A stretch of DNA of 34,810 nucleotides from Methanothermococcus sp. (GTDB lineage: Archaea; AGJL01; Methanococci; Methanococcales; Methanococcaceae). Positions 6,083 to 27,403 of this stretch are shown in pieces (position 1 is the stretch's first letter; each line of letters starts with the position of its first letter). The notes under the pieces were generated by a model that ran no database searches, had not been told where the DNA came from, and saw only the letters and a program-made list of their open reading frames with translations. The position numbers were made by a program, and so were the translations under genes. The stretch spans positions 1 through 34,810 of the forward strand of contig NZ_WAKW01000058.1 in the NCBI RefSeq assembly GCF_015523155.1, written 5' to 3'.

Positions 6083-7279
6083 TTATGATTTTTTTCCCAT
6101 ATTAGCTAAAATCAAAATTATAATTAAAAGTATTAATCCATAGAGATAATAATATAAACCACTATTGGTTTCATTTTTCATTTTATTATTTCCATTTATA
6201 ATATTAACCAATTGCTGAGTTAAATCTTCCATATAATTTCCATTGAATTTAACTAATTTTGCAGATTCTTTATTAACACCCGCTAATAACCAATACCTAT
6301 CTTTATCCACATAAGTAATATAATCAACTCTTTTAACTTCTAAATCTGGAAGATTTTCTATTTTTCCATTTTTATATAGATAGCATCCGCTTATTGGATA
6401 ATCAACTATGCAGCATCTATTAGGTGAGCTCAGGATTTTTGTAGATATTAATAAAACTTCATTACCACCATAATCCATTGTATAAATTGGTTTATTAAGA
6501 ATTTCTGTTAAATTTCCATTATTGTATAAGTATAATCCACAATAACCATCTTTTGAATATAATGAAATTAATAGTTTTTTATAACCGATTGGTGCTATGC
6601 ATTGCTCTGTTAAATTATTTGGAAAGGTAAATAAATTGTATAAACTATTATTTTTATAAATAAAGGCAGATTTTTCTGTAATAATATACCAATCATTATC
6701 GTAGGGATTATATATCACATCCTTTGTATGATTTGGCAGAGTCTGGCTTTTTACATTTTTAATATCTGTAAAATTATGATATAAAACAAACCACTCTCCA
6801 TTACATGATGTTGTTGAACCCCTCCACTTAATAATTACGGTGTTTTTGTTATCGGTAACAAATTTATCTATTTCTGCCATTGAGCATCCTGAATAGTAAC
6901 CACTTACTGTTGTAGTGAAGTTTTTTCCATCAAAGAACCCTAACATTTCTGGATTGTAAAAAATCCATTTTCCTTTAAAATAACCAACTACAACGGGATG
7001 TTTAAAATAACTATAATAATTCCAATTCTTAGGTTTGAAGTTTATCTTTGAATCATTTAATTCAGATTTATTTATTGGAAATTCTGAAATTAGTTTAAAC
7101 CCTTTTCCATCGTATAGTATTTCATACATCTTTAAGTGGGATTTATCATAAACACTAATCATTGCATCTGTTCCATTTGTAGCCATGCCCTCGAATGATA
7201 TGTTGTATTTTATAGTTTCCTCTGCAAATAGCGGATTAAGAAATACAAATAAAACTAAAAAGAGGATAAATTTTTTCAA
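6083..7279 (-). CDS. Secreted, membrane-anchored beta-propeller-like protein
   Basis: No named family recognised (398 aa). Residues 1-19 are a signal peptide ending at FAEE. The final 25 residues contain one hydrophobic helix followed by GKKS, a C-terminal anchor. The body repeats a short motif of aromatic-x-Asn/Asp/Lys-Gly-Lys/Asn-x-hydrophobic at least six times: YDGKGFKL, FDGKNFTT, YKNNSLYNLF, LYNNGNLTEI, LYKNGKIENL, KFNGNYMEDL. This pattern is typical of kelch or WD-like blades. Many N-x-S/T sequons fit a glycosylated surface protein. The start codon is TTG at 7279, supported by GGTGATAAA immediately upstream. It lies 30 bases downstream of the frameshifted gene and may share the asnB transcript. 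Confidence 0.6.
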   Translation of the reverse strand: MKKFILFLVLFVFLNPLFAEETIKYNISFEGMATNGTDAMISVYDKSHLKMYEILYDGKGFKLISEFPINKSELNDSKINFKPKNWNYYSYFKHPVVVGYFKGKWIFYNPEMLGFFDGKNFTTTVSGYYSGCSMAEIDKFVTDNKNTVIIKWRGSTTSCNGEWFVLYHNFTDIKNVKSQTLPNHTKDVIYNPYDNDWYIITEKSAFIYKNNSLYNLFTFPNNLTEQCIAPIGYKKLLISLYSKDGYCGLYLYNNGNLTEILNKPIYTMDYGGNEVLLISTKILSSPNRCCIVDYPISGCYLYKNGKIENLPDLEVKRVDYITYVDKDRYWLLAGVNKESAKLVKFNGNYMEDLTQQLVNIINGNNKMKNETNSGLYYYLYGLILLIIILILANMGKKS

Positions 7280-15151: not shown

Positions 15152-15240
15152 CGGCGCTGGGGGGGAATCGAACCCCGAGTTCAAACGAACTTGACGGATC
15201 TGAAGTCCGCCCTGTGCCACCAGGCACAGCACCCCGCGCC
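15152..15240 (-). tRNA. selC: tRNA-Sec (anticodon UCA)
   Basis: The 89-nt gene inserts selenocysteine at UGA codons. The anticodon loop is CTTCAGA (anticodon TCA) on a 6-bp stem. It has the archaeal tRNA-Sec shape: a long acceptor (GGCGCGGGG against CCCAGCGCC, one mismatch), a 7-bp D stem CTGTGCC/GGCACAG closed by only TGGT, a long variable arm AGTTC-GTTT-GAACT, and a 4-bp T stem GGGG-TTCGATT-CCCC. The discriminator is G and CCA is not encoded. The long D stem excludes a tRNA-Ser or a suppressor. A TATA-like TTATATTATATAAC lies about 20-35 bases upstream. The organism therefore decodes UGA as Sec; no selenoprotein gene is evident inside this window. Confidence 0.95.
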
Positions 15241-19226: not shown

Positions 19227-19544
19227 TTAATCATACTCCCTCCATGTATATCCACATTTTTTACATTTGTAAAATCTTGTTTCGGGTTCATCGGCACATC
19301 TTGTTTGTTGCAACCACCAGTACGCTTCCATATTTCCACATTTTGGACATTCTATTCTTGTAGTCGGTAGTGTATTTACATCCTCAATTACCACAATTTC
19401 CTGTTTTTTTGAATCTATTTTTTCCTTTAATTCATAAGACTCATCAGTCTGTTCCAAATCTTCTTCATATCCACATACCGTGCATACCAATTTTCCATCT
19501 TTTGGAAGCATTATATTTTTACATTTAGGGCAAAACTTTACCAC
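19227..19544 (-). CDS. tfs: Transcription factor S (archaeal TFIIS-like cleavage factor)
   Basis: Rescues backtracked RNA polymerase by stimulating RNA cleavage (105 aa). The N-terminal Zn ribbon uses C5, C8, C21 and C24; a linker follows; the C-terminal TFIIS ribbon uses C66, C69, C94 and C97. The acidic hairpin that enters the polymerase reads QTRCADEPETRFYKC with D85 and E86. The start is GTG at 19544 with GGTGATAAT before it. The same site, start codon and first four codons are repeated 175 bases upstream, next to a hairpin element, so the mRNA may carry a decoy start. Confidence 0.93.
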   Translation of the reverse strand: MVKFCPKCKNIMLPKDGKLVCTVCGYEEDLEQTDESYELKEKIDSKKQEIVVIEDVNTLPTTRIECPKCGNMEAYWWLQQTRCADEPETRFYKCKKCGYTWREYD

Positions 19545-19558
19545 ATTATCACCTTTTT
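19532..19558. repeat. 27-bp direct repeat, copy A (over the tfs start)
   Basis: This 27-bp sequence spans the tfs ribosome-binding site, its GTG start and the first codons. It is repeated without change at 19707-19733. Allowing one mismatch it extends four bases leftward (GGGC against GGGT). Confidence 0.8.
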
Positions 19559-19706
19559 AATTTAATACATAAAAATATATATTAAAAAGTTAGGAGGTTC
19601 CAAAACGAACGAAGTGAGTTTTGGATTTTCGAAATCTTTATTTCGAGTAATGAAATTTCGAAGAAATTTCATCTGATGGATGCACACTTTTTTAAAGGGT
19701 GCGGGT
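19559..19706. repeat. Hairpin-rich element, copy 3, between direct repeats
   Basis: A 148-bp stretch flanked by exact 27-bp direct repeats. It contains TCCAAAAC...GTTTTGGA (19599-19625), TCGAAAT-CTTT-ATTTCGA (19629-19646), and a perfect 10-bp stem ATGAAATTTC-GAA-GAAATTTCAT (19650-19672). The small GAA-type loops match the other elements. The arrangement looks like an insertion with target duplication, in the manner of a miniature element, although 27 bp is long for that; unequal recombination is the alternative. Confidence 0.55.
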
Positions 19707-19733
19707 AAAACTTTACCACATTATCACCTTTTT
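19707..19733. repeat. 27-bp direct repeat, copy B
   Basis: Exact duplicate of 19532-19558. Read on the minus strand it supplies GGTGATAATGTG and a short frame of 16 codons (VKFYPHPLKKCASIR after the GTG) ending at TGA inside the hairpin element. It could act as an upstream open reading frame of tfs. Confidence 0.8.
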
Positions 19734-19769
19734 TATTTTTTTATTTTTTTATCATCATTTTTTTATCTT

Positions 19770-20201
19770 TTATTTTATTATTTTTTCATTTTCTTTTTTA
19801 AATAATAAATAATCTTCAAATATCTTTTTGTGGTCAAAAGCTAAATCTAAATCTTTGACCTCTTCGATTTTAAAGAGTTTTGCCTCCTTGGCATCATCAG
19901 AACCTTTGAGGATTCCATCAATATATTTCAAAATATAAACCACAGAAACTGTATGGCCACGCGGGTCTCTGTTGGGGTCTGAATACACCCCAAGGAGATG
20001 TTTTATTTTGGTCTTTAAATTGGTTTCTTCATATATTTCCCGCATAACTGCATTTTCAGTGGTTTCTCCATATTCTACAAAACCTCCTGGAAATGCCCAT
20101 GAATCTTTAAAGGGTGGATTTTTTCTTTTTATTAATACTATCCTATCGTCAATTTGAATGATACCATCAACGGTTAAAGATGGTAATTTATATTTACACA
20201 T
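19770..20201 (-). CDS. Nudix hydrolase, ADP-ribose pyrophosphatase-like
   Basis: A 143-aa cytosolic Nudix protein. The Nudix box runs from G40 to L62 with E46, R54, E55, E58 and E59; the usual Gly before the last residue is Asn61. The substrate-side segments LLGVYSDPNRDPRGHTVSVVY and KDSWAFPGGFVEYGE are like archaeal ADP-ribose pyrophosphatases, which split ADP-ribose to AMP and ribose 5-phosphate; an NADH or dinucleotide substrate is not excluded. The ATG at 20201 has GGTGATGCTA before it; a start 12 bases earlier has none. It lies upstream of tfs on the same strand. Confidence 0.88.
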   Translation of the reverse strand: MCKYKLPSLTVDGIIQIDDRIVLIKRKNPPFKDSWAFPGGFVEYGETTENAVMREIYEETNLKTKIKHLLGVYSDPNRDPRGHTVSVVYILKYIDGILKGSDDAKEAKLFKIEEVKDLDLAFDHKKIFEDYLLFKKENEKIIK

Positions 20202-20494
20202 TAGCATCACCAAAAAAATAAAAGATAAATACCTTAAAAAAGGCTTTTATAATGTTATAATCTGCACTTATTTCTATAATCCCTATAAATACTTAATTTA
20301 TACCTCATATATATTATAACTTTTATACCTTTCTATTACAGGTTTTGAATTAAGAGAGTTTTTATAATATTTATATTTTACGATAAAAATTGATAAGGTA
20401 TATTAATAATATTTAACATTTATTTAAACTATAAATAATAACTATGTAAGTTATAAGAATTATAAAATAATTTTAAATAAATGGAGGCGATTTT

Positions 20495-27011: not shown

Positions 27012-27403
27012 TTTTTCACCAATATTTTAACTTATTCCGCAAAAGTCCCTTCCGTTATAAATCCTTCGGATTTTAACTTCGTTTGATTGTAAAATCTCCT
27101 CGCTTCGCGAAGATAAGGGATTAATCCTTTGGATTTTAGCTCGCAAATAAAGATTTGCGATGGGAGAGTTTATTTTAGACGGAGGGGTGTAATTCACTCA
27201 GAGTTATACCCTATATAAAGGTAATCTCTGGCTAAAATCCCCTATGAGTAGGAAGGTTTGCGAAGGGTGAGGGCTACGAAAACCTTTCGGTTTTCGTTTA
27301 ACCCTCCCTATAAGTATGGGTAATTCACTAAATTATAATAAAATAAACATAAATATATATTGGAATTTTCAGAGTTCAACTACTTAAAAAATAAGCTTAT
27401 TTA
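27012..27403. repeat. 392-bp gene-free gap with hairpin element, copy 4
   Basis: The longest gene-free gap. Structures in order: AAATCC-TTC-GGATTT (27059-27073), a CTTCGCGAAG palindrome near 27105, AATCC-TTT-GGATT (27123-27135), TCGCAAAT-AAAG-ATTTGCGA (27141-27160), and ACGAAAACC-TTTC-GGTTTTCGT (27276-27297). A GGGTGTAATTCACT variant at 27185 and the 45-nt module at 27289-27333 repeat the end of copy 1. No supported reading frame. The left end holds the moaE ribosome-binding site; the right 70 bases are plain AT-rich DNA next to the tldE stop. Confidence 0.6.
27289..27333 (-). repeat. 45-nt repeat module (mate of 200-244)
   Basis: Same length as 200-244, with identical first 14 and last 16 bases. 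It overlaps the right arm of the 9-bp ACGAAAACC/GGTTTTCGT hairpin. It lies 70 bases past the stop of the minus-strand tldE-like gene. Confidence 0.65.

Follow-up and report, generated by a model that had tools for sequence, protein, structure and literature searches.

A hairpin element beside a duplicated tfs start in Methanothermococcus probably reflects insertion with duplication of the gene border

The window analysed here is the whole stretch of 34,810 nucleotides from Methanothermococcus sp., contig C57 of a 1.44-Mb draft genome that is 91% complete (G000 below). It carries an intact tfs gene, whose product matches the Pfam models Zn_ribbon_TFIIS (2e-19) and Zn_ribbon_RPB9 (2.7e-12), and upstream of it a NUDIX hydrolase gene that directly adjoins tfs in relatives without the hairpin element described below (Table 1). 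The start region of tfs is present twice, as copy D at the gene and copy D' 175 bp upstream. An earlier note had reported an exact 27-bp repeat covering the tfs ribosome-binding site, GTG start and first codons; the repeat lies where it was placed (19532-19558 and 19707-19733), as the core of a 36-nt repeat with 34 identical positions, and copy D does include the ribosome-binding site, the GTG codon (19544-19542) and the first codons. The pair scores 57.2 bits, and the next best match of this stretch within the window about 30 bits. D' opens a predicted decoy frame, which at 19719-19669 has exactly the 16 codons that had been claimed for it; the decoy frame upstream of tfs is equally long in G011, the closest relative of the window genome and a sister species. 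The 148 bp between the 27-bp copies had been taken as a single hairpin element. This DNA indeed folds strongly as RNA (-54.1 kcal/mol, z = -6.7), but the element proper is 108 bp long, since the match to a second, homologous copy in this genome (G000:C59:5586-5695, 93% identity) is confined to exactly that portion. Its right end, hairpin C, abuts D', and 31 bp separate its left end from D. These 31 bp probably belong to the duplicated segment as its outer, diverged part, because at better-preserved sites the matching stretch lies within the duplication, and they may hold a TATA-like tfs promoter. The element ends read AGGTTCC... and ...GGTTGC (inward GCAACC); the family alignment contains no terminal inverted repeat shared between them, and a search of Rfam gave no match to the element.

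Table 1. Features at the tfs start (window positions).
Feature	Position	Strand	Basis
tfs (transcription factor S / TFIIS-like), intact, GTG start	19227-19544	-	105-aa ORF
Repeat copy D (tfs ribosome-binding site, start, first codons)	19528-19563	-	34/36 match
AT-rich stretch between D and hairpin element	19564-19594		31 bp
Hairpin element E, 108 bp	19595-19702	+	homologous copy elsewhere in genome; model R1 match, E 2.8e-10
Hairpin A, TCCAAAAC ... GTTTTGGA, inner ACGAAGT mini-hairpin	19599-19625	+	family covariation, fold
First middle hairpin, optional, missing in most members	19629-19645	+	fold; also at G000:C59 and G011 tfs
Second middle hairpin, optional	19650-19672	+	fold; also at G000:C59 and G011 tfs
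Predicted decoy frame opened by D', 16 codons and stop	19669-19719	-	ORF VVKFYPHPLKKCASIR*
Hairpin C, flush with D'	19682-19702	+	most widely conserved part of the family
Repeat copy D', truncated second tfs start	19703-19738	-	34/36 match
NUDIX hydrolase gene, upstream of tfs	19770-20213	-	Pfam NUDIX 9.3e-24

The tfs element is one member of a dispersed family. A covariance model (R1) of hairpin A plus hairpin C, with which the best 150 candidates per genome were scored, gives at E<=1, where the weakest matches are not all true family members, 22 matches in G000, 31 in G011 and 4 in G009, a genome of the same genus; the other nine genomes of the genus have marginal matches only, in G004 and G006. 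Both hairpins are kept by compensatory changes: 98.7% of the cells are paired, no shuffle did as well, and 14 of the 19 hairpin pairs have changed on both sides. Family members are non-coding, about 58-111 bp long, and consist of hairpin A, an optional middle part and hairpin C. Related elements occur in three further genera of Methanococcaceae (genomes G012, G026, G028 and G029); in G026 and in one G012 array only hairpin C of the element is left. We found no description of such a family in the literature, a search that covered open-licence papers and is weak evidence of novelty, and as far as the searchable literature shows the family is undescribed.

Nearly every element is flanked by a direct repeat. 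Such a repeat scores at least 35 bits at 25 of the 31 sites scored in G000, G011 and G009 and 33.7 bits at one more, against a maximum of 29.2 bits for 1,500 random pseudo-elements placed in the same DNA. The five sites without a call are three G011 relics with hairpin A only, a complete element on G000:C66, and a nested element at G011:378269, where the automated scoring missed the element end and a decayed copy can be read by eye. Of two further nested sites in G009 (L126 and L127), outside the 31, one has a weak copy and the other none. The duplicated stretch runs from a point P inside a gene border outwards to the element edge Q and measures 28-85 bp, a range that leaves out one larger value, at C47, which is an alignment error. 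Three kinds of border are duplicated: tRNA T-loops, coding starts and coding ends. At tRNA genes P is the start of the T-loop (GTTCRAATC), and the copy usually reads GTTTGAATC. The targets, named putatively from reading their sequences with a subset checked against Pfam, include the starts of tfs, ksgA, a thiamine-binding-protein gene (MTH1187 type), trpG and a radical-SAM-like gene, and the ends of hisF, ntpD, argF, gatC and a methyltransferase gene. At all 26 sites it is the hairpin-A side that holds the intact gene. Copies that scarcely differ from the local border, with local intergenic DNA included, are found at hisF, ksgA, MTH1187 and several tRNA genes.

Compared with D, A-to-G and C-to-T changes are over-represented in the first ten bases of D' (27/48, compared with 14/73 further in; p = 3e-5), a count that takes each site once and rests on near-junction pairs that were hand-aligned and chosen after the pattern had been seen. 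Structure, and pairing with the element in particular, was considered as a cause of these changes and rejected: folding energy was better at 12 sites, the same at 2 and worse at 11. At coding borders, past the first 12 bases, 74 of 134 differences between D and D' fall at third positions (p = 1.6e-7). The share is 11/21 at Methanothermococcus loci, which is compatible with a copy drifting beside a constrained gene, and about 30/40 in relatives of the Methanococcus group (L168, L187, L195, L200, L201, L203 and L220).

Comparison with relatives reveals single-copy borders. The MTH1187 start and hisF end are single in G011, G009 and G007 and occupied in G000 only; the ntpD end is single in G009 and G007 and occupied in G011 only; and at tfs only one copy of the start is present in G007, G009, G012 and relatives further away. 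These comparisons are between species rather than strains, and the intergenic DNA is often not alignable to the base. The single-copy borders thus support insertion accompanied by duplication of the border and, together with homologous elements at many unrelated loci, are what is generally expected of a mobile element. An empty tfs site in sister strains had been proposed as a check; among species, G007, G009, G012 and more distant relatives have one, but the sister species does not: in G011 an element identical at 98 of 109 columns is inserted at the same codon, with its own repeat copies. The finding named as refuting the insertion reading, that all relatives carry the same arrangement with diverged repeats, is accordingly seen in G011 but not in the others. 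Since G011 shares the insertion and has repeat sequences of its own, the tfs insertion appears to be old. Thus the earlier suggestion that the hairpin elements can move draws support from the related copies at many unrelated loci, but the tfs site, its insertion being common to the sister genome, is not itself evidence of recent movement.

The start codons of the two tfs copies agree within each genome (GTG in both copies of G000, ATG in both of G011). This within-species likeness suggests exchange between the copies, by gene conversion or unequal crossing over, or else that the same codon was hit twice independently. A similar likeness is seen at ksgA, where both G000 and G011 have arrays. 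Arrays of 2-4 units occur at ksgA, at tRNA genes and elsewhere; G011 has three 132-bp units at a tRNA gene, G012 four 93-bp units at the end of a protein gene, and G009 an array at a tRNA gene as well. Two contig ends in G000, the end of C20 and the start of C65 (L132 and L133), lie at an assembly break within the ksgA array, whose 112-bp tandem unit consists of an element and the ksgA start.

The best explanation of these observations, and in our judgement a probable one, is that a small non-autonomous hairpin element, one of a family at Methanococcaceae gene borders, has inserted at the tfs site and occupies it, and that the border was duplicated with it. On insertion the hairpin-C end would be joined at P, within the gene border, and the hairpin-A end at Q, which lies outside the gene; the stretch between them (67 bp at tfs) would be duplicated, as might be expected of an integrase or transposase that makes widely staggered cuts in the two strands, with the gaps filled afterwards. 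The gene would retain its complete border on the hairpin-A side and so survive, with a truncated copy left on the hairpin-C side; tfs would now use signals between the element and its start. Later recombination between the flanking repeats would give rise to the arrays and, presumably by gene conversion, to similar copies within a species. The layout in the other genera is the same as in Methanothermococcus, which we count in favour of this reading. Insertion with target duplication, as the earlier note had it, therefore agrees with the duplications at nearly all complete elements and with the single-copy relatives, but the duplications are long and variable, and the fixed polarity would not be expected of plain insertion with target duplication. 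The third-position bias, strongest in the Methanococcus relatives, and the A-to-G and C-to-T excess in D' also speak against it, and none of the transposase families tested is common to all carriers, with the exception of CRISPR Cas1. More tentatively, and with considerably less confidence, we propose that Methanococcaceae possess an undescribed system that inserts hairpin-ended DNA at gene borders with fixed polarity, duplicating the border so that the gene survives; its integrase, perhaps CRISPR Cas1-Cas2, would belong to none of the transposase families tested, and some genomes would be left with spare gene ends that can be swapped in.

The main rival to insertion with border duplication, which we consider unlikely, holds that the mobile unit is the gene border together with its hairpin or hairpins, ending at hairpin C. 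On this account a unit from a paralog or a relative would supply the border now in use and push the resident border (D') outwards, as integrated elements do when they bring along a tRNA gene's 3' end. Fixed polarity would follow naturally, and the third-position differences (at L201 and L220, 5/5 each) are what an imported gene end might be expected to leave, so that elsewhere in the family they fit such an end better than the fresh target copy that the earlier note had assumed. In G026, moreover, the copy beyond hairpin C is often derived from another gene of a surface-protein family, and at least in that genome a unit bringing its own gene end would fit better. The bias is weak in Methanothermococcus, however, and the near-identity of D and D' past the junction at hisF, ksgA and several tRNA sites extends to local intergenic sequence; therefore the donor of such a unit would need a nearly identical genome. 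Separately, at four G026 loci (L217, L218, L219 and L224, on C8 and C11), hairpin C comes after a surface-protein-like gene and precedes the 3' gene end of another family member, and such alternative 3' ends could swap into the gene by recombination.

Off-target integration of hairpin DNA by Cas1-Cas2, at sites resembling the start of a CRISPR repeat and with the target duplicated as a CRISPR repeat is, would supply an enzyme for insertion with border duplication rather than a different anatomy; we regard it as quite doubtful. Cas1 is present in 7/7 carriers and in 4/15 other genomes (Fisher p = 0.002), but the association is confounded by ancestry, and those four genomes have Cas1 without hairpin elements. 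The T-loop motif GTTCRAATC resembles the start of the G011 CRISPR repeat (GTTAAAATC), whereas the P sites in protein genes show little likeness to a CRISPR repeat. Casposases, which are related to Cas1, have tRNA 3' ends or 3'-distal coding regions as their targets (the T-loop sequence TCAAATC in the case of the A. boonei enzyme) and produce duplications of 14-15 bp (PMC6614799). The duplications seen here vary in length, but that of a CRISPR repeat is constant (30 nt in G011), and the hairpin elements are longer than CRISPR spacers. Cas1 genes lie near a CRISPR array in G011, on G000:C9 and in G009, and the other G000 copy is in an apparent CRISPR-Cas operon. As separate observations, family members are found inside CRISPR arrays at L172, L174 and L179 (G029), where the duplicated flank is the CRISPR repeat, and at L054, L055, L061 and L065 (G007 and G006) CRISPR repeats are interrupted mid-repeat by a different hairpin insert (TTTACGAGCGAAGCGAGTAAATCGTAAAAATTCCGAAGGAATTTTGAGA).

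That replication slippage at a unit of gene and hairpin already in place gave local tandem duplications, with no mobility, is highly improbable: arrays exist, and a decayed hairpin-A relic follows D' at three sites (L115, L112 and L136), but at most sites (tfs, hisF, MTH1187 and several tRNA genes among them) D' runs into unique DNA without a second element, homologous elements occupy unrelated loci, and relatives lack both element and duplication. Other candidates were rejected. Reverse transcriptase (RVT_1) is found in G012 only among the seven carriers, and its absence from six of them argues against retrotransposition; Y1 transposase is missing in most carriers, and DDE_Tnp_1, searched with one Pfam model, is absent in G000 (91% complete), G012 and G026, so neither is a partner enzyme common to the carriers. 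Guide pairing between the stretch 5' of hairpin C and the target at P gave p = 0.008 for all sites in one version (0.09 and 0.41 for non-tRNA sites) and was abandoned when the wider set gave p = 0.54 and 0.36.

Several known systems resemble the family in part. Like MITEs and REP-type repeats, the elements are short, non-coding, dispersed, hairpin-forming and do not encode a transposase themselves. Terminal inverted repeats and short target duplications are features of MITEs, and we know of neither in REP elements; the elements described here lack terminal inverted repeats and are flanked by long duplications. They share subterminal hairpins with elements derived from IS200/IS605, a family that to our knowledge makes no target duplication, and differ in having one and in showing no cognate guide pairing. 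The E. coli tyrT repeats are tandem units behind a tRNA gene, each with the tRNA 3' end, but they are a single locus, and we know of no dispersed hairpin element or protein-gene borders there. Casposons insert, as the hairpin elements do, at tRNA 3' ends or 3'-distal coding regions, but they are large and have terminal inverted repeats and short duplications (PMC6614799); the hairpin elements have no inverted repeats and no cas1-solo inside, and the carrier Cas1 genes that we inspected lie with CRISPR loci, unlike the cas1-solo of a casposon. A parallel in duplication is that of IS1549 and IS1634, which produce long direct repeats of variable length (8-514 bp reported, without a mechanistic model; PMC2266710). 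These are complete insertion sequences, bounded by terminal inverted repeats and encoding a DDE transposase, whereas our far smaller elements, compared with MITEs of a DDE insertion sequence of the IS1634 type, have the long variable repeats but neither the inverted repeats nor, in G000, G012 and G026, a DDE_Tnp_1 partner transposase. Long variable target duplications, elsewhere an unexplained oddity of a few bacterial insertion sequences, are here the rule for a family, in tiny archaeal elements that combine them with fixed polarity, a tRNA T-loop target and no obvious transposase; the mechanism of integration thereby becomes testable in the genetically tractable Methanococcus. The family would also readily account for the duplicated gene ends, decoy start frames and tRNA fragments of carrier genomes, and it shows how gene borders can be entered without breaking genes.

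Some further observations concern hairpins and neighbouring sequence. A plasmid origin of the elements was considered and gave no convincing match; a viral origin was also considered, with one hairpin-C match in one viral contig (L235, IMG/VR, 7067-7090), where an exact hairpin C lies just upstream of a coding start. In an archaeon outside Methanococcaceae, an exact hairpin C is likewise found just 5' of a coding start, in a Candidatus Methanofastidiosum contig (L236, 1693-1717). At six sites (L117, L123, L124, L126, L127 and L143) the loop of hairpin C holds a second, nested hairpin element (CGAGCGATAGCGAG ... GAGATTTTT). Within the window, positions 27030-27340 form a hairpin-rich intergenic stretch with CTCGCTTCGCGAAG and AAAACCTTTCGGTTTT motifs and no R1 match, and a selenocysteine tRNA gene (15152-15240, minus strand) overlaps the region in which a 367-aa ORF, called mechanically on that strand, starts.
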